Source: a virus
Virus record (IMG/VR): IMGVR_UViG_3300034272_000238
Coordinates: 1-44,707 of that record
DNA: 44,707 nt
Reading direction: 5' to 3' (one strand)
Numbering within the stretch: position 1 is the stretch's first letter; each line of letters opens with the position of its first letter. Below the pieces are notes generated by a model. The model ran no database searches. It had not been told where the DNA came from and saw only the letters and a list, made by a program, of their open reading frames with translations. Position numbers and translations under genes: made by a program. Positions 5,801-37,303 of this stretch are shown here, one piece after another.

Positions 5801-6949
5801 CCGCTCACCCCAATCAACACCTTTGGTTCCAGCTAGAGCCTTTGTTTGAGCTAGTTGTTCAGCTTCATCAAGCTTGTTCCAAGGGTTGCTCCCATTCTTA
5901 TTGACAAACTTACGCCATTCAGCGACCGACGTAACCTTGCCTTCCAGGTTCACAGGAAGAGCACCCTCTTCTACCAGCTTGTTGTAAGTAGCTTGCTCAT
6001 AATTCTGACGTGCTTCTGCCATGAGTACTTGACCCTTGCGGTTGTACTCAAGTTCAGCAGTACGATCAACAGCTTCCGAGATCTTACTAACATTGGTCGA
6101 TTGGGCTGGATCAGTGATCCGTGCCTTTGCCTTGCCAAGGTTTGACTTAACACCCCTAGCAGCGGCTCCAACACCTTCCATTGCTACGTCAGCAATAGCA
6201 CCAAGACCAAGCCCTTCAAAGACGTTGTAGAAGCTTCTCTGTGCTGGAGACATGTCATCTGTCGTGGCAATCGGTGCCAAGACACTCGACCACTCAGGCT
6301 TCACTTCCAGGATGGCAGCAGCAACGTTACTTTGCTGTGATTGGTTGCTGATTACATCGTAAGTAGCACCAGCAGCGGCACTACCAGCAATACGTCCAGC
6401 GGTCGTTGCCTTACCGGCAGCATTAACAAGACCACCAGCTTTGGCTAATCCCTGTACACCTTTGATGCCCCATCCAATTTTACCAACACCAACAGCACCA
6501 CCAATGAATTCAACACCTGTACGGATGACGTTACCCCAAACTGTCCGAGTGATCGGTTTGTCGGTAATCAACCAAGGTGCTTTGAATTCGTATGGATTCT
6601 CTGGGTTGTCTTGCTTGTAGAAGTTGGGATCAAAGAACTTTGGGATTGAACCAATGCTGTTGTAAATGTCAACTGCACCGCCTACAACTGCATTGCCAAG
6701 TTCCTGAGCATTCTCCATTACTCCAAACTTCTTCGGATCCATCGTCTCTTGCGACGATTTCATCGTTCCGTCTGGGTTCATCTTTGATTTGTACTCAGCC
6801 TGTGCAGCTGCTTCCTGTTGTGCTGCTTTCTGTTTTTCTTGTTCAGCAGCAGCTTCTTCTTGTTTTACCTTTTCGGTTACATTGTATTGGTCTAACGCCT
6901 GTTGGCTTACCTCAAGGTCGTTAGGTCCATCAATTCCATAAATGTTCAT
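2828..6949 (-). CDS. Internal virion (core) protein, gp16-like
   Basis: At 1373 residues this is the longest gene, close to T7 gp16 (1318), and sits in the gp16 position between the gp15-like gene and the tail fibre. In T7 this protein leaves the capsid and helps form the trans-envelope channel for DNA entry. The N-terminus (residues ~35-60) is a Gln/Glu/Ala-rich, probably coiled-coil segment (EEAAAEQEKQKAAQQEAAAQ). Gly/Ala-rich stretches follow at ~140-200 (VIRTGVEFIGGAVGVGK; AGRIAGSAAAGATYD), and there are further hydrophobic helices near ~1065 (GVVGTAAMMALNGQ). I see no lytic transglycosylase motif, which T7 gp16 carries at its N-terminus; in this phage a lysozyme-like domain is in the preceding protein. 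The start overlaps the previous stop by ATGA. Confidence 0.9.
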   Translation of the reverse strand: MNIYGIDGPNDLEVSQQALDQYNVTEKVKQEEAAAEQEKQKAAQQEAAAQAEYKSKMNPDGTMKSSQETMDPKKFGVMENAQELGNAVVGGAVDIYNSIGSIPKFFDPNFYKQDNPENPYEFKAPWLITDKPITRTVWGNVIRTGVEFIGGAVGVGKIGWGIKGVQGLAKAGGLVNAAGKATTAGRIAGSAAAGATYDVISNQSQQSNVAAAILEVKPEWSSVLAPIATTDDMSPAQRSFYNVFEGLGLGAIADVAMEGVGAAARGVKSNLGKAKARITDPAQSTNVSKISEAVDRTAELEYNRKGQVLMAEARQNYEQATYNKLVEEGALPVNLEGKVTSVAEWRKFVNKNGSNPWNKLDEAEQLAQTKALAGTKGVDWGERDFTRRAEKQGATNLEVAEEQLLDDLEVGTPRENPAYMKGGDVTDHQELTNTSVPLKGVRDQIRIRNEWPQRDGAPRGPLSAAQIRRMEYAAPGMTQEEIDKLAEGFAADPMYQELYGGRNTPSDIKEDFKEMAGVVQDFLDDSGHSRMIDASPEQLTEFIDSLRFVDGADKGSKIEGINVLNHAQLVATDLVMGQLLTGARDLARAALSVSDQVDVAAPGSILDGIMARYATLARMRKETSMMSSWNLRRFKDGVETTIDDVTVRTDASDAVAAEVETLKTLLRDDVDDSLLQTFLHFSATGGNKPQTFKDLQEFMRRKLHGYREGDTQYRNQLINEMQIMGVNSILSGPKTPVRAVVGTGLGTIMRPVSTIIGSLGGTTDPAITRSSFAALGGMMESLGEAWQKAVMDFRAYNQNAEGWRGITMSTRDYEFEALKAFHYQYGSDGDKAMMTVVDSIHKLNKLPIFNYGPRIMAAGDTFFSQLIGRGRMRQLAYLDTYEQLKAANKVVSDADMDRLVREAERKFESKVFDADGQIADEMAQYAADEAKLTKELTGFAKAIDHAFDKAPYLKPFMLFIKTGVNALEMTAKHTPVLNRFVKEHADIMSKNWDDPAMLQYGIKSANDLEIARATMRGRVAVGYGVVGTAAMMALNGQITGNGPPDRELRESWKQFGWKPRSIKVGDTYVSYESLEPFNLMLSFIADVADSQKVMGDEWVGNNLGKLSYLIAQNITNKTFMAGIFQLQELFTSNGQRIPSIAANLVNNQVPLAGMRNELGKLFSPGMRELENGFVDGIRNRNLYIDLLAGKDGKLPYRYDILNGRPLNDNVPLVRMMNSVNPFYVNPATNPTRELLFRSGVDLKLTFNTGPNNESLEGRPDLKSKWQYYVSQQNIEAQLENLFKDRQVVQSILDMEEDRAAGRRYEASETFHVPLIEQVLKNAKTTAWAQLMNDSTDLQELNNKARLEALSGKLRKQGDRSQANNIEEILSIAK

Positions 6950-30292: not shown

Positions 30293-32635
30293 TCAACAAA
30301 AGAAATAGGTGGATTCGATCACGGATTCCGGTTCAAGGTCTCCGATGATCGGGGGTTCGCTCTCTGCACCGATCTGGCGGGCAAAGTCGCGTAGGTAGTC
30401 GTGCTCGGCAAACAGGTGCATGTATGTCTCGCGTACCAATGTGGATAGAACGGACATGTCAGTCGCCCTGCACAGCACGGAGTCGTGGATCAATGCAATC
30501 GGTGCATCGAACCGCAAAGTGGACAGGTGGAGCAGCGCTGCATCCAATGAATGGATCAGATTTGGGCTCGTTGCATTCTTGTGGTGGTTGAGGTCCACCT
30601 TGTCGGTGTCACCTGTCGCCACAGACAACTTGCACTCACCCAGCAGTTGCAGCTCAATGCGGACCACCTCTTTCTTCATCAACTTTTGGTTGACGACAAA
30701 GCCAGAGGGTGTAGTCCACTGCAGCTTTTCTGCCCCGCGCTTGATGGCATTGGCCACTTCTTCCTCAATCCAACGCATGACACGCATGGGACCAGGGAAG
30801 ATCTCCTCCATCGCTGCTCGAACGGCAGCAACGGTTTCCGTTAGGTCTTCTTTGGAGACCTCAACGCCTTTCTCGGCCAACGCTTCACGGATGTAGGAGC
30901 GATTGGAATAGGGTTTGGCATTGTAAGGAATCGTTAAACATGTGCGCTTGGTGACTTTCCGATCCATGTGGTCTCGAATGGACGCAGGACAGTTTGGTTT
31001 AGCGGCTTCGGCCACCACCTTGTACGCATCCTGCGGTTGATCACTCGGCACCACATTGACCATCTTTGCTGTTGATTTACAGCGACACAGCCCAGCCAGG
31101 ATCTGGAGTCCTGAGCAGGTGGCGTCTGTGGCCACCATCAGCCCTGTGAATTGCCGATCCGCTGCAATGACGCAGTGGTAGTACTCCTCACAGGCGGCCA
31201 AGAACTGCCATGGTTCATCGGCTACTTCCCACTCAGGTAAACACCCAATCGGATCTGTAGCGACACGCGTGATGAGTGTGAGGTTATCCGCCGTCCACTC
31301 CAAGCGCTCCGCCATGGTGGCTTTGTCCAAGCCGTAGGTGGTCGCAACCTGGAACGACAACCATTGCTCTGCTTCAGGAGTCATGAACGACTCATCGGCA
31401 AAGCGCAGAAGAGACTTTCCAAAATCAGTATCCTGCGGGGTCAAGAATGCGGGAATTGGATAAGCTCTCCCGCGATAATCCATCGACCACGGACAATGGA
31501 AACGCTCAACCTTCTTGAACCGACGCACCGCTTCCATCGTCATGCGTGTCCGGCATGATCGCTTGAACTCTTGGGCATTCAGGTTCATCGTCTCTGCTGC
31601 ACGTCTTCGATAATCCTTCCGGCTATCGTAGTTCTCAGCAATGTCCACGGGCTTTGGTGGTAGCTCGTGATGCACGATGGGTCTGAACTTCCCAACAGGT
31701 CGTTGCAGGCGCTCTAGCTCTTCTGCCACCTCCACAATGAAGGGATTGAGGCGAAAGGCAACCTTCTGAATCTTGTTCAGAAAAGCCAGGGGCACTTCCC
31801 CCTGTATAGATGTCGGATCTCCACGGCGTACCAAATCATGACCGCGCATCACCTCATTGAGTAGGTAGCCACCAGCGCGTTCGTTGGTCCAATCGTTGGG
31901 TTCAATCAACATCGGCCACGCCAACGGCGCGAACAGTTCTGAATCGCTGATCACCTTGTCTTTGATCGCCAAGAACTCTGGGGTCGGTGCGATGAACTGC
32001 ATCTTTCTGCGTCCCTCTTGACGCACGATGCGATCAAACCAACCGCTGCTTTGGATGATGCACTCCAGCAGCCAGCCCCCCAGCTTGACCCGATTGGAGG
32101 ATCCCCAGGTCTTCCAGGGTTCCACCTCGCAGCGGTTCATCAGGGTGCGGATCACCACCAATTTTTGATGGGTGCCGATGGAACGGTGCCAGTAGTTCTG
32201 TTTCAGTGTGTTAAGCAGTCCTGGGGCGTTGCGTTCGTAGTGGCGCATCTGGCATTCCGCCTCCACTGCAGCCCCCACCGCTTCACAGACAGTGGTGACC
32301 TGATCGCTCCCTTTCTTGGTGCTGAACACCTTGTCAAAGGTCACCTTCAGGGCAATGGCCCCGGCGGCTTTGGCGTCTAGGTCCGTCAAGTACTGATGGA
32401 TTTCCTTGAAGGCGACCCCGGTTTTGCCGCGTTTGATCGCGTATTCGACCGTGGACTCGATTTGCGTCACCAACTTCGGCAGCAGCGCTTCGATGGACGC
32501 GGCGCCATAGACCGTGGCACTGGCGTAGCTCTGGTCTTCGAGCTTGCGCGTGTTGTCACGCAGCTTTTGGAGACCGAGCCGGATTTGATCGCGCTCCAGT
32601 TGGATCTGCTCATCAATTTGAGCGGGTGTGGGCAT
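30293..32635 (-). CDS. T7-like single-subunit RNA polymerase
   Basis: This is a 780-residue polymerase (T7: 883). Catalytic residues align with T7: D504 in VATDATCSGLQI (D537), K563/R564 in VTKRTCLTIPYN (K631 region), Y571 (Y639, which selects ribonucleotides) and D718 in LIHDSVLC (D812). The chain ends TYFFC rather than the FAFA of T7. It transcribes the middle and late genes from phage promoters. Directly upstream are a terminator and a hairpin of the recurring CCGTATG type, so it may be transcribed from its own promoter rather than simply with the integrase. Confidence 0.97.
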   Translation of the reverse strand: MPTPAQIDEQIQLERDQIRLGLQKLRDNTRKLEDQSYASATVYGAASIEALLPKLVTQIESTVEYAIKRGKTGVAFKEIHQYLTDLDAKAAGAIALKVTFDKVFSTKKGSDQVTTVCEAVGAAVEAECQMRHYERNAPGLLNTLKQNYWHRSIGTHQKLVVIRTLMNRCEVEPWKTWGSSNRVKLGGWLLECIIQSSGWFDRIVRQEGRRKMQFIAPTPEFLAIKDKVISDSELFAPLAWPMLIEPNDWTNERAGGYLLNEVMRGHDLVRRGDPTSIQGEVPLAFLNKIQKVAFRLNPFIVEVAEELERLQRPVGKFRPIVHHELPPKPVDIAENYDSRKDYRRRAAETMNLNAQEFKRSCRTRMTMEAVRRFKKVERFHCPWSMDYRGRAYPIPAFLTPQDTDFGKSLLRFADESFMTPEAEQWLSFQVATTYGLDKATMAERLEWTADNLTLITRVATDPIGCLPEWEVADEPWQFLAACEEYYHCVIAADRQFTGLMVATDATCSGLQILAGLCRCKSTAKMVNVVPSDQPQDAYKVVAEAAKPNCPASIRDHMDRKVTKRTCLTIPYNAKPYSNRSYIREALAEKGVEVSKEDLTETVAAVRAAMEEIFPGPMRVMRWIEEEVANAIKRGAEKLQWTTPSGFVVNQKLMKKEVVRIELQLLGECKLSVATGDTDKVDLNHHKNATSPNLIHSLDAALLHLSTLRFDAPIALIHDSVLCRATDMSVLSTLVRETYMHLFAEHDYLRDFARQIGAESEPPIIGDLEPESVIESTYFFC

Positions 32636-32900: not shown

Positions 32901-33818
32901 TTAGATGTTGTTGGCTGTGCTCAAAACGGCGTCCTGTGTGTTATGGACGTACCGCTCGGTGGTCTCCACTCGCTTGTGGCCCATAGCGGCCTTGACGTGC
33001 ATCAAGGGTGCACCGGCTGCGATCTGCCACGTCCCGAAGGTGTGACGCAGTGTGTGGAAGACATACGATTCATCAATGTAGGGATCCAATCGGATCGCCT
33101 TGTCCCTCACTTTGTTGAAGTGACGGTTGATGATCTGACGGCTGTACCACACCTCACCAAAGACCAGATCCATTGCGTCCTTGCCATGGAGTCGCCGTTG
33201 GAGCATCTCCACGATCTTGTCGTTGATGCCCACCTGGCGGTAGTTCTTGGCCTTGGTCACTGAGTCAGGTGTACCACCGATGTGAATGACAGGCTGTTGC
33301 GGCCTGAAGTCCACGTCCCTGACCTTGAGTTTGCGTAACTCTGCTTGCCGTGCTCCGGTATACACCGCTGCACGAATCAGATCAGCCAACTCGAAGTCAC
33401 CCCGTTCACAGGCCAAGTTGGTGAGCAACGTCACCTGCTCTTTGGTGAACCAGTTGGTGCGTCCTTCCCCTTCCTTGTAGCGTTGAATGACAGGAATGGC
33501 GTTGATGTACCCGTCCCTGGCTGCGATCTTGAGGACCATGCTAATCGTTGAAATGAAACGATTGGCAGAACCATTCGACCAACTGTAGCTGTCTACAGCA
33601 TCTTGAACCACCGCTTTAATGAACGGTGTGTTGATGATTGTGAGGGCAGGATCACCAGCGATTTCTTCAAACTGTTTGGCGTGACGAATCACGTTCATAC
33701 CGTTTGCTGTCTTGGGATCCCATTGCTGGGTCAAGGCATGTTCAAACGCTTGGCTAAACGTCTTGATCGACGTTTTCTTGGGGATGCGGTCAAGGATGCG
33801 TTGGGTTCGCTTATCCAT
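32901..33818 (-). CDS. int: Tyrosine-family site-specific integrase
   Basis: This 305-residue recombinase has all catalytic residues: R157 (YTGARQAELRKL), K190, H255-x-x-R258 (FHTLRHTFGTWQ), H281 (MGHKR) and Y290 (ETTERYVHNT). The N-terminal SAM-like core-binding domain spans ~15-115. The gene is intact. It overlaps the MarR-like stop by 8 bases and is followed by the tRNA-Leu-like attP. It would recombine attP with the host tRNA gene, although lysogeny of such phages has rarely been seen; the alternative is a relic or rare integration. Confidence 0.97.
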   Translation of the reverse strand: MDKRTQRILDRIPKKTSIKTFSQAFEHALTQQWDPKTANGMNVIRHAKQFEEIAGDPALTIINTPFIKAVVQDAVDSYSWSNGSANRFISTISMVLKIAARDGYINAIPVIQRYKEGEGRTNWFTKEQVTLLTNLACERGDFELADLIRAAVYTGARQAELRKLKVRDVDFRPQQPVIHIGGTPDSVTKAKNYRQVGINDKIVEMLQRRLHGKDAMDLVFGEVWYSRQIINRHFNKVRDKAIRLDPYIDESYVFHTLRHTFGTWQIAAGAPLMHVKAAMGHKRVETTERYVHNTQDAVLSTANNI

Positions 33819-34164
33819 AGAGGGTTGATTCGATTTGTCGGATTAAATCGTGGCCTCGTTTGGTTAACCGTAGAGTCAACCTTTTTCTGTCGATAGGGTC
33901 TACCTCCTTGGTGATAAGATCCATCCCTGGCTTACCTAGATAATGCTCACTTGTCAGTCGAGCAATGTTTCGACTGCTGCTCGCAGTAGTGAGTCCTAAG
34001 TCCTCCTCTAATGCTTGCTTGTGGCAATTATCGTGGCTTGCAATGTAGAAAAAACAAGCCAAAGCTTGGGCTGGTACTGATCGGTCAAGTACCCTCAACA
34101 ATTCCATGACCCGAAGCATCCGCTCCATGTCTGGATTAGTGCGGGTCCTCCGTAATGGGTCCAT
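33811..34164 (-). CDS. MarR-like winged-helix regulator
   Basis: This 117-residue protein has a central winged helix: ALACFFYIASHDNCHKQALE, LGLTTASSSRNIARLTSEHY (recognition helix ~58-77) and the wing DPIDRKRLTLRLTKRGHDLI. The start ATCATGGACCCA has a preceding AAGGATC that may serve as ribosome site. It is directly upstream of integrase and overlaps it by 8 bases, so the two are probably co-regulated. It may control early promoters or integrase expression; no ligand pocket can be judged. Confidence 0.88.
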   Translation of the reverse strand: MDPLRRTRTNPDMERMLRVMELLRVLDRSVPAQALACFFYIASHDNCHKQALEEDLGLTTASSSRNIARLTSEHYLGKPGMDLITKEVDPIDRKRLTLRLTKRGHDLIRQIESTLYG

Positions 34165-35367: not shown

Positions 35368-35439
35368 TTAGCGGTGGAGAAAGTAAAAGGAGATTGCTAG
35401 GGCAATCAATGCAGGGAAGGGAAGGAGAATGATGGTCAC
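35368..35439 (-). CDS. Candidate 23-residue membrane peptide
   Basis: The GTG start overlaps the previous gene's stop as GTGA. The frame reads (M)TIILLPFPALIALAISFYFL then HR and TAA. It is almost entirely one hydrophobic helix with a basic end. The coupled start and 5-base spacing to the next gene support it; it is too short to be sure. Confidence 0.45.
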   Translation of the reverse strand: MTIILLPFPALIALAISFYFLHR

Positions 35440-35705
35440 TCTTTCTCTTCCTTGAGGTACTCAGTCAGTGCGTCCCTGATTTCAGTCAGTGACCTGATTT
35501 GATGTTCACAGAGTTTTGCCTTGGCTGTGTTCTTGATGTCCACAACAAGGAAATTCCTAGAACAACGAATCATGTCATCTGTACCGACTCCAAAGATTTC
35601 GAGTTGCTCGTCATCTGTGGTGTAAACAGTCAGAGAACCATCGCCGCTGTAATAGCCAACATGTGCGATGTTCGCGTGAATGCTGTAGTTGGTGGAGAGT
35701 TTCAC
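35436..35705 (-). CDS. Small early protein, unknown
   Basis: It has 89 residues, starting at GTG (GTG AAA CTC TCC; MKLSTNYSIHANIAHVGYYS). An N-terminal beta-rich part (SLTVYTTDDEQLEIFGVGTD) is followed by a helical, charged C-terminus (SLTEIRDALTEYLKEEKE). It starts 21 bases after structured element A. Function unknown. Confidence 0.72.
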   Translation of the reverse strand: MKLSTNYSIHANIAHVGYYSGDGSLTVYTTDDEQLEIFGVGTDDMIRCSRNFLVVDIKNTAKAKLCEHQIRSLTEIRDALTEYLKEEKE

Positions 35706-35725
35706 GTTGTGCTTGTGAAGTGAAC

Positions 35726-35782
35726 GAGGGTGAGTCCCTCAGAAAGCCCATCCCACCACATACGGATGCGGACAGAATGGGC
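35726..35782 (-). promoter_or_regulatory. Structured early element, copy A
   Basis: Minus-strand order: arm GCCCAT, inner hairpin CCGCAT-CCGT-ATGTGG (35756-35771, one G-T wobble), arm ATGGGC, the shared GGCTTTCTG, then a second hairpin GAGGG-ACTCA-CCCTC (35726-35740). A 19-base stretch (35759-35777) is identical to copy B at 36410-36428. Stems are kept while their sequences change, which points to an RNA structure. It lies between two early genes. Confidence 0.7.
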
Positions 35783-35794
35783 AATAGGAGAGAG

Positions 35795-36079
35795 TCAAAG
35801 GTCTGCCTGTTCCTGGCAGTAGTTCTCAACAACAAGCCACACCATCTTGTTGATCAGTTCCATGACAGAATCTGTGTTGACATCAACCAGATCCCTGATA
35901 TCAAGACCAAGATCAGCAATGGTGTTCTCGATGTCGTCTTCGTGTTCGTTGAAGAAGTCCCTGATTTCCTTGTAGTAAATGAAACCAGAGACACCACCAG
36001 AGCAGCCATATTTGGCTACATCCTGGATCTCATCAGCATCGGTGAACCGTGCTGCGAGTGCGTCAGTAAGACGAGTCAT
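35795..36079 (-). CDS. Early protein (CSGGVSGFIYY motif), unknown
   Basis: It has 94 residues from the ATG at 36079 (MTRLTDALAARFTDADEIQD). The phrase YGCSGGVSGFIYYKEIRDFF followed by acidic helices (EHEDDIENTIADLGLDIRDL) occurs in a small family of phage proteins of unknown role that I think is annotated as a DUF. The upstream in-frame extension crosses a hairpin and is unlikely to be translated. Confidence 0.77.
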   Translation of the reverse strand: MTRLTDALAARFTDADEIQDVAKYGCSGGVSGFIYYKEIRDFFNEHEDDIENTIADLGLDIRDLVDVNTDSVMELINKMVWLVVENYCQEQADL

Positions 36080-36129
36080 TGTGTGTACCAAGGTGGACAG
36101 AGTAAGTAGCACTGTGAAGGCTACAGAAA

Positions 36130-36150
36130 GGGAGACACATGGTGCGTCCC
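36130..36150 (-). promoter_or_regulatory. Hairpin between two early genes
   Basis: Minus strand GGGA-c-GCAC-CAT-GTGT-c-TCCC: two 4-bp stems around one C/C mismatch, with a GT wobble. It lies 51 bases before the start of the 94-residue gene. Fits an early-region processing-site pattern together with elements A and B. Confidence 0.45.
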
Positions 36151-36162
36151 TGAGTGTAGGCA

Positions 36163-36351
36163 TCAAGCGGCCTCTTCTTCGCTTGCTTCAATCTCTTCTA
36201 CCCAACGAATTGATAGATCTTCAAGTTGATCTTCATCTATGTATTCTCCAAGGTAGATTTGGAGATCAGAGACGAGACCTTCTAGATCATCGTTGTCTAG
36301 ATAGTATTTGAAAGCAGCGGTCAGATGCACGTCTGTGTACGTGGTCTGCAT
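36163..36351 (-). CDS. First early gene: small acidic protein, unknown
   Basis: It has 62 residues from the ATG at 36351 (MQTTYTDVHLTAAFKYYLDN ... RWVEEIEASEEEAA). It is very acidic (about a third Asp/Glu). It is the first gene after the non-coding leader and element B, so it would be among the first expressed, like T7 gp0.3, an acidic DNA mimic; that comparison is only suggestive. A longer upstream frame crosses element B and is not credible. Confidence 0.7.
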   Translation of the reverse strand: MQTTYTDVHLTAAFKYYLDNDDLEGLVSDLQIYLGEYIDEDQLEDLSIRWVEEIEASEEEAA

Positions 36352-36376
36352 GGTGTTGCGTCCATGATCAGGTGAA

Positions 36377-36440
36377 GCAGTGCGAACACTGCAGAAAGCC
36401 TTTGCACCGCATACGGATGCGGACAGAAGGCAGAGTGCAA
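36377..36440 (-). promoter_or_regulatory. Structured early element, copy B
   Basis: Minus-strand order: arm TTGCAC, inner hairpin CCGCAT-CCGT-ATGCGG (36407-36422, perfect), arm GTGCAA, shared GGCTTTCTG, then hairpin GCAGTG-TTCG-CACTGC (36377-36392). The 19-base core equals copy A. It lies 25 bases before the first early gene. Confidence 0.7.
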
Positions 36441-36575
36441 TGATCAAACAAAGCGTGTTGCTCCGCTTGCTACTGCTTGTGCACCTCACGGTCAGGAACC
36501 CACGCCGTTGGTCGCCATCACCAGTTGATCTGGTAGCGGTGCTGCTCTTCGGTTGTCGATGTTCGATGGGCTGAC

Positions 36576-36602
36576 TGTATACCAGAGCGGATACAGCGTC
36601 AA
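36576..36602 (-). promoter_or_regulatory. Candidate host sigma70-type early promoter
   Basis: Minus strand TTGACG (36597-36602), 15-base spacer, TATACA (36576-36581); TACAGT two bases further gives a 17-base spacer. A weaker TTGCCA-15-TATATT pair lies upstream near 36727-36753. They point toward the early genes. Sequence only, no experimental support. Confidence 0.45.
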
Positions 36603-36806
36603 GGTTGGTGTGCCACTTGTTCTGGTGGCTGCAGATAGGTGATGGATCTGCCCAGCATTCGCGCTGGTTCGCATCGCCTGGGTGCAGTATAGCTACCGAT
36701 GTGGATAGGACGTGCTGGAACCGTAATATACTGTCACAATGTGGATGGCAACGGCTGAGATCCGTTGGTATGACTGGTGCTATGAGTTCGTATCAAGAGA
36801 AGGCAG

Positions 36807-36837
36807 AACAGATGTGTTCACATGACATACGTCTGTT
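36807..36837. promoter_or_regulatory. Inverted repeat, possible operator
   Basis: AACAGA/TCTGTT arms enclose ATGTG-TT-CACAT. The inner 12-base dyad is near perfect, a size typical of a dimeric repressor site. It lies upstream of the candidate early promoters and could be bound by the MarR-like or ribbon-helix-helix protein; inference only. Confidence 0.35.
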
Positions 36838-36957
36838 ATTGCGAACCATTCTCAATAAGCGATGCCTGCGGCCTATGCTGACGCCTGTTTGGTAGCGCAG
36901 TGATACACAACAGCACTCGATTTCCTATCTAGTGGCGCCAATATCCAGGGAAAGAGA

Positions 36958-36970
36958 CCCCATACGGGGG
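36958..36970 (-). promoter_or_regulatory. Fourth CCGTATG-type hairpin
   Basis: Minus strand CCCC-CGTAT-GGGG. It shares CCGTATGNGG with the hairpins at 32686, 35756 and 36407 and is preceded on the plus strand by GAAAGAGACC, similar to the CAGAAAGCC next to copies A and B. Confidence 0.4.
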
Positions 36971-37031
36971 TGCTGTGGCCTCCCTCCCTAGGCGATAGTC
37001 TTCTCAAATTTCTGCCAAAATTTCATCAAGG

Positions 37032-37037
37032 TATAAT
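37032..37037 (+). promoter_or_regulatory. Perfect -10 box (TATAAT) upstream of the plus-strand gene
   Basis: A consensus TATAAT lies 62 bases before the ribbon-helix-helix start. The -35 region (TTTCTG at 17-base spacing) is poor, so this may be a weak or activator-dependent host-type promoter. Confidence 0.4.
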
Positions 37038-37099
37038 GTGGTGGGCCAGCGTAGTTGGAGCTACCTGACCCGTGACCAACTCAACCATGGATTGAGCTG

Positions 37100-37303
37100 A
37101 TGACCTCATTCTCACGACAACCAAGCAATCAGCAAGGTTTGTCTCCTTTTACAACACCATTAACACGCAAACCAAGCCGTGTAACAGTCACCATTCCATG
37201 GTCATTACGACAAACACTGGAACAACGAAGTGACAAGGAAGGTAGAAGCCTCAGTAACCTCATCGCTTACCTTTTAGAACTGTCTTCTGAGAAGCCTCTG
37301 TAA
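37100..37303 (+). CDS. Ribbon-helix-helix (CopG-like) DNA-binding protein, only plus-strand gene
   Basis: This 67-residue protein has a basic, flexible N-terminus (residues 1-25) and then a classic RHH: strand SRVTVTIP (26-33), helix WSLRQTLEQRSDKEG and helix SLSNLIAYLLELS. The second part resembles many cyanobacterial RHH proteins, suggesting a host origin. It has its own TATAAT box and is divergent from the early genes and convergent with the late block (5-base gap to the next stop). It may repress phage transcription, act as an antitoxin-like protein without a visible toxin, or influence integration; I cannot choose. Confidence 0.82.
   Translation: MTSFSRQPSNQQGLSPFTTPLTRKPSRVTVTIPWSLRQTLEQRSDKEGRSLSNLIAYLLELSSEKPL

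Follow-up and report, generated by a model that had tools for sequence, protein, structure and literature searches.

RNA processing sites and stabilising hairpins in known systems

The closest described counterparts of the RNA elements reported here are the early RNase III sites of phage T7 (R0.3, R0.5, R1, R1.1 and R1.3), which lie between the early genes, up to and just beyond the RNA polymerase gene, and form long hairpins of about two turns with a lower stem, an internal loop and an upper stem, repeated at successive junctions. Two further systems share some traits with these elements. The 5' UTR of ompA has a 5'-terminal stem-loop that stabilises the mRNA, and the put antitermination RNAs of phage HK022 are a tandem pair of hairpins joined by a short linker in the early phage transcript. 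At T7 R1.1, the internal loop sets four nucleotides against five, and cutting yields pieces of 47 and 13 nt (PMC6121014). Every sequenced cyanobacterium has RNase III genes; in Synechococcus PCC 7002, two of the encoded proteins cleave many E. coli RNase III substrates (PMC10989914). In the cyanophage P-SSP7, pMarR increases host RNase E (PMC9692554).

Genomic setting

The window, that is, the whole 44,707-base IMG/VR virus record analysed here, comes from a T7-like cyanopodovirus. Its RNA polymerase gene (30293-32635, minus strand) shows 79% identity to the counterpart in Synechococcus phage S-CBP1. The early genes lie on the minus strand, beginning near 36,350 and continuing towards lower positions. 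Upstream of them are a leader that appears to be non-coding, thyX and the terminase gene. The protein encoded at 33811-34164 (minus strand) is 41% identical to the gp0.7/MarR-like protein of P-SSP7, and its gene adjoins a phage integrase gene (32901-33818, minus strand). The early gene for a DUF7222 protein (35795..36079, minus strand) is flanked by two of the elements described below, E3 and E1, and served as a handle for finding relatives.

Some side observations were made in this region. Relatives of the DUF7222 protein were found in large Enterococcus, Staphylococcus and Bacillus phages, one of the genes being named as terminal-repeat-encoded, which points to a widespread early protein. 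The apparently non-coding leader (36450-37080, minus strand) is partially conserved with S-CBP3 and S-RIP2, and a leader hairpin at 36486-36514 covaries between phages (ACGGC-GTGGGTTCCT-GCCGT versus AGCCC-GTGGGTTCCT-GGGCT).

Three copies of the element in the window

The conserved unit consists of strand 1 (7 nt), hairpin A set between invariant C·C and U·U mismatches, strand 2 (7 nt), a short loop and strand 3. Strand 2 can pair either with strand 1, giving a long helix of about 20-22 positions, or with strand 3, giving hairpin B; the two pairings are mutually exclusive and both covary. Three copies were found in the window, all on the minus strand. E1 (35726..35797) begins with the UGA stop codon of the DUF7222 gene (35797-35795), followed by strand 1 UCUCUCC (35793-35787), hairpin A (35782-35746), strand 2 UGAGGGA (35741-35735) and hairpin B (35740-35726); the next gene starts with GTG at 35705. 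E3 (36106..36165) likewise begins with a UGA (36165-36163), the stop codon of the ORF at 36163-36351, and comprises strand 1 GCCUACA (36161-36155), hairpin A (36151-36129), strand 2 UGUAGCC (36125-36119) and hairpin B (36124-36106), with the next gene start, an ATG, at 36079. In E2 (36377..36446), strand 1 is CAUUGCA (36442-36436), hairpin A spans 36431-36398, strand 2 is UGCAGUG (36393-36387) and hairpin B spans 36392-36377, after which the first ATG in frame is that at 36351.

A preliminary description of this DNA had reported two elements, E1 and E2. Both are real, but E3 had been overlooked; it matches our covariance model at 36101-36165 with an E value of 1e-13 and E2 does so with 4e-9, both being training rows of the model that scores them. 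E1 was not detected by the covariance model and is placed in the family by 6 of 7 pairs between strands 1 and 2 and by sequence likeness to the UGAGGGA subclass, which has seven other members (including locus L059).

Most structural details reported for E1 and E2 were reproduced. The 19-mer CATACGGATGCGGACAGAA occurs exactly twice (35759-35777 and 36410-36428, spaced by 651 nt; 0 in shuffles), the second block CAGAAAGCC is present in both elements, and both stretches fold on the minus strand (z of -4.0 for E1 and -3.1 for E2). The inner CCGCAT/ATG(T/C)GG stem is formed, including its G-U pair, and the second hairpins differ in letters while keeping their pairing. The outer arms TTGCAC/GTGCAA assigned to E2 did not hold up: TTGCA is part of strand 1, the conserved pairing is CAUUGCA/UGCAGUG across hairpin A, and in the best fold the arms of hairpin A itself are GCCUU/AAGGC. 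As for the 19-mer, it is indeed common to E1 and E2, where it falls in a hairpin A tip with 23 of 24 nt identical (35754..35777 in E1 and 36405..36428 in E2, minus strand), but this tip is phage-specific and not the conserved unit. E3 is without it. Because the core is phage-specific, searches with the 19-mer were fruitless: it had 0 matches in 2.9 million viral contigs, was absent from the elements of relatives, and was unproductive in relatives also with mismatches allowed.

Distribution of the element in cyanopodoviruses

BLAST matches were obtained for S-CBP3, S-CBP4 and S-RIP2, whose early gaps share one plan despite different letters; the S-RIP2 element is at L003 38893-38948. A profile search with the DUF7222 protein yielded 80 IMG/VR loci, and many of the gaps upstream of these DUF7222 genes repeat the order GGTTACACT, hairpin, TCTGTAGC..GCTAC, leader and ATG. 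A structural descriptor without a sequence anchor gave 2104 matches, mostly by chance; the search was therefore anchored on the pyrimidine linker, followed by a covariance model. This search, which the preliminary description had proposed, produced about 190 matches in sequences of related cyanopodoviruses; they lie on the coding strand where early genes adjoin, and the element is conserved in relatives. Across 17 records (666 kb), all 13 model sites lie in an early gap in coding orientation, and 48 more contigs found by a DNA-pattern search added 81 matches up to an E value of 0.1.

All 149 distinct contexts place the element directly 3' of an ORF (by a simple criterion, under which some frames may be chance), and start codons mostly follow 20-28 nt 3' of hairpin B. 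The elements thus sit at early-gene junctions on the transcribed strand, as T7-type sites do. The model gave no match in P-SSP7, NATL1A-7, S-B28, DSL-LC07, S-CBP1, S-SBP1 or S-TIP37, and the element is therefore limited to part of the group. A strict pattern matched only once in 84,980 host species genomes, in Oceanobacillus, which we take as chance. Rfam 15 gave 0 matches in the window at gathering score, nothing relevant at E ≤ 5 in 35400-37300 and nothing relevant at E ≤ 1 in four relatives, and no description of such cyanophage elements was found in the open-access literature. The family is a real, uncatalogued RNA family with about 150 distinct contexts, absent from Rfam.

Two exclusive helices are supported by covariation

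In the aligned copies, strand 1 GGUUACA complements strand 2 UGUAGCC, which in turn complements strand 3 GCUAC. The three strands change together in other copies, for example GAUUGCA/UGCAGUC/GACUGC, AUCUACA/UGUAGGU/ACCUAC, GAUUAUA/UAUAGUC/GACUAU and UCUCUCA/UGAGGGA/CCCUCA, and at single positions the three-strand changes include G-C-G, A-U-A and C-G-U. The first aligned rows had been chosen with pairing required. The selection was therefore redone on hairpin A, the pyrimidine linker and hairpin B, leaving strand 1 free. Pairing between strands 1 and 2 was then bimodal: 57 of the 86 distinct candidates had 6-7 of 7 pairs, and the rest, with 0-5 pairs, look like chance matches, mostly in coding sequence. 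A plain tandem of two hairpins (A + B), considered at an earlier stage, was dropped once strand 1 was found to pair with strand 2.

When 48 copies were aligned with plain MAFFT, 95.5% of the cells were paired in helix 1:2 and 96.9% in helix 2:3. Each helix had four pairs with two-sided changes and a covariation score unmatched in 500 shuffles, and the lower stem alone contained 29 two-sided cells versus 7.6 when shuffled. Since hairpin A is in the same register as helix 1:2 and columns 12-53 and 13-52 are practically never paired, 1-A-2 is read as one hairpin with a fixed mismatch loop.

A model of 1-A-2 only (model R1) had 111 matches from 82 sources, giving 85 distinct rows. In this alignment, which is fitted to the 1-A-2 structure, 90.9% of the cells of helix 1-A-2 are paired and its covariation score is 0.54, compared with 0.17 ± 0.01 when shuffled and at most 0.17 when slid. 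Changes on both sides were seen for 12 of the 15 pairs of the long hairpin among these 85 distinct copies, which bears out the earlier suggestion of RNA structure under selection. Helix 2:3, which is unmodelled in this alignment, was 98.6% paired with two-sided changes at 5 of 5 pairs (0 of 500 shuffles), figures to be read with the facts that most rows descend from a selection requiring hairpin B and that kinship of the sequences inflates covariation scores. Two mutually exclusive helices are thus both backed by compensating changes, one of the traits expected of a conformational switch RNA.

The letters of the mismatch loop are fixed, with CU/UC in 75 and CU/CC in 9 of the 85 copies. The linker between hairpins A and B is 2-4 nt long and lies inside this symmetric loop in the predicted major fold. 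The stem base is made by three more nucleotides, usually the UGA stop codon, that pair with UCA in the loop of hairpin B (UGA/UCA in 44 copies, UGU/ACA in 13), and column 3-77 is A-U in 54 copies and U-A in 29. The modal length of the long hairpin is 20-22 positions, equal to two RNA turns, and it is present in the minimum free energy structure of 81 of the 85 copies.

Comparison with T7 sites and predicted refolding

The early genomic range of the elements, up to and just beyond the RNA polymerase gene, their stem plan of about two turns and their recurrence at successive junctions are those of the T7 sites. A stretch of 13 nt (2+7+1+3) runs from the two fixed mismatches, counted on their 3' side, to the base of the stem; the small R1.1 piece has the same length. 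Unlike the asymmetric 4/5 loop of R1.1, the cyanophage loop is symmetric, ranging from 2x2 to 4x4, with invariant C·C and U·U, so that neither the letters (CU/UC) nor the asymmetry of the T7 folds were recovered. We doubt that the T7 loop letters define the class, since T7's own sites vary. The cyanophage sites also differ in often taking the stop codon as stem base and in a third strand, present in almost every copy, with which strand 2 can pair anew.

Folding was computed with nearest-neighbour parameters for 37 °C. In the ensemble of the uncut RNA, the probability of helix 1:2 is 0.93 and that of helix 2:3 is 0.06, and the long-hairpin state is favoured over A + B by a mean of 3.8 kcal/mol. 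After an in-silico cut at an assumed position in the internal loop, helix 2:3 reaches 0.94 in the downstream product, and the cut products bind each other at a mean of only -2.9 kcal/mol. E1, E2 and E3 all show the same predicted refold, with product binding of -2.5 to -4.3 kcal/mol. As a control, the five early sites of T7 were treated alike, with assumed T7 cut positions, and only the R1.1 product gave a clear 5' hairpin. Since most T7 sites are without a 5' hairpin after the cut, the refold is unnecessary for RNase III punctuation as such. The possible 5' hairpin of the R1.1 downstream product has 7 bp and lies at about 5888-5910 of the T7 record (L100).

An RNase III site had been one of several options offered in the preliminary description, and it is now the best-supported one by T7-like genomic place, stem plan and the modal 20-22 positions; the cleavage itself is what we infer. 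We consider it probable that the elements are RNase III-type processing sites at the positions of the T7 R sites, with a built-in refold. The element most likely represents the T7 kind of RNase III punctuation site, extended by a refolding step.

According to this model, the element would be a punctuation mark of the early polycistronic transcript. The comparison of copies shows that the upstream stop codon is followed by the long imperfect hairpin of strand 1, A and strand 2, about two turns in length with an invariant pyrimidine internal loop. As happens in T7 early mRNA, host RNase III would cut this hairpin on the loop's 3' side, leaving hairpin A as the end of the upstream mRNA. The downstream mRNA would start with strand 2, which would release strand 1 and pair with strand 3, and the resulting 5'-terminal hairpin, some 20-28 nt ahead of the start codon, may shield the message from 5'-end-dependent decay by RNase E or RNase J. 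The hairpin would in this respect resemble ompA-type stabilisers, which are likewise hairpins at an mRNA 5' end and expected to impede 5'-end-dependent nucleases, and would differ from them in being masked in the long transcript and predicted only after cleavage. Shielding may matter because the MarR-type regulator of P-SSP7 raises host RNase E and the phage studied here encodes a relative of it; the link to RNase E is circumstantial.

If this model is correct, marine and freshwater cyanophages divide their early transcript and protect the pieces with one compact RNA device, in cells whose RNase E is driven up by phages of the P-SSP7 type. The model would offer a specific, testable answer to how early mRNAs might evade a phage-induced nuclease, and a simple model for cleavage-coupled refolding.

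Alternative explanations

The elements might instead be co-translational switches that act without cleavage. A ribosome at the UGA would cover strand 1 so that strands 2 and 3 pair, the long hairpin would form when the upstream gene is untranslated, and the expression of neighbouring early genes would be coupled. Such a switch would fit the two exclusive covarying helices, the pairing of the stop codon within the stem, the prevalence of UGA as stop codon (123/149 contexts) and the start of strand 1 at 1 nt past the stop in 62/149 contexts. About half of the elements are further from the stop, however. In both states the 20-28 nt leader is open, and neither the start codon nor any recognisable ribosome-binding site is hidden; such a switch would also not account for the invariant mismatch loop or for a length of two turns. 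We regard this reading as unlikely.

Cleavage by another nuclease appears more doubtful still. RNase E, for example, would act on the pyrimidine linker, and the two hairpins, A and B, would be passive ends. The U/C-rich linker does sit between two hairpins, and RNase E is among the main endonucleases of cyanobacteria; P-SSP7 induces it (PMC9692554). With only 2-4 nt, however, the linker is closed within the symmetric mismatch loop of the predicted major fold, and selection for helix 1:2 would have no explanation.

An equally small chance is given to transcription control, in which the element would act on the host polymerase as an attenuator, a terminator or a put-like antitermination RNA. Each early gene has hairpins after its stop codon, attenuators typically have exclusive helices, and hairpin A of E3 is one weak terminator-like match. 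Yet the 2 terminator-like matches in the region are close to the shuffled mean of 0.9 (sd 1.1), none of them is at E1 or E2, and no U-tract follows any hairpin B. The element moreover precedes several unrelated small genes and is without a conserved ligand-sized core. It has in common with HK022 put a tandem of two hairpins, joined by a short linker, in an early transcript, and differs in its conserved 1:2 helix that excludes hairpin B and in its more numerous copies.

A promoter of the phage (also raised in the preliminary description) or of the host, be it one with TACACT serving as a -10-like box or a hairpin promoter, is highly improbable: TACACT is common at a fixed place and the element is located before genes, but there is no fixed DNA sequence, because the conserved letters change in compensating pairs (TTGCACT, CTCTCACT and TTATACT occur with matching strands 2 and 3), and the region has 1 sigma-70-like match versus 2.0 in shuffles, none at an element.

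tRNA-like elements at the same junctions

Elsewhere in the group, the junction at the leader carries a tRNA-like fold with an H1 hairpin and a T-arm with a UUYGAGU loop, both of which covary strongly across 32 sequences (L025:3570-3640 and 31 more, e.g. L014:575-640 and, on the minus strand, L003 near 39630). It is without a D-arm, has an acceptor-like stem recognised by eye, and lies at the 3' end of the non-coding leader, with a small hairpin after it. This leader element was not found in the window, where E2 occupies the site that it has in relatives; as far as that site, the leader can be aligned (GCGGAGCAACACGCTTTGTTTGATCA versus GCGGAGCCACACGCTTTGTTTGCTCA). A tRNA-like reading of E1-E3 themselves was rejected, as they have no T-loop and the wrong topology.

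A second T-loop element (CACGGGATCATAGCCCG / GCCAGGTGCAATGCCTGGC), bounded by GCTCA/TGAGC, replaces the switch element upstream of the DUF7222 gene at about 15 loci (L014:925-1018, L015:995-1073, L080 and L087-L098). It is often followed by a hairpin such as TGACAC..GTGTCA, and a small hairpin before the leader follows both types.

The tRNA-like elements thus occupy the same junctions as the switch element and likewise have, ahead of the start codon, a small hairpin and then a leader. They differ in their D-arm-less fold with a T-loop (UUYGAGU and others), which would suit RNase P or Z and not RNase III. The replacement of one fold by another at a single junction argues for a common task, and cutting suits both folds. 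We put forward, tentatively and with somewhat less than even confidence, a new class of punctuation RNA, triggered by cleavage, in which the same seven nucleotides would be half of a nuclease site and then part of a 5' cap hairpin, the cut itself creating a decay-resistant message. Two unrelated RNA folds, the one in relatives being tRNA-like, would then have arrived at this cut-and-cap logic.

Two minor features were also recorded in these phages. A small palindromic repeat like GAGTGTCTCGTTACACTCGACTG occurs in varying places (L067:1283-1363, and near DUF7222 in L026, L031, L041, L043 and L045), once within the loop of hairpin A, and looks like a mobile hairpin repeat. A glutamine-II riboswitch is present in S-RIP1 (L012:44043-44095).
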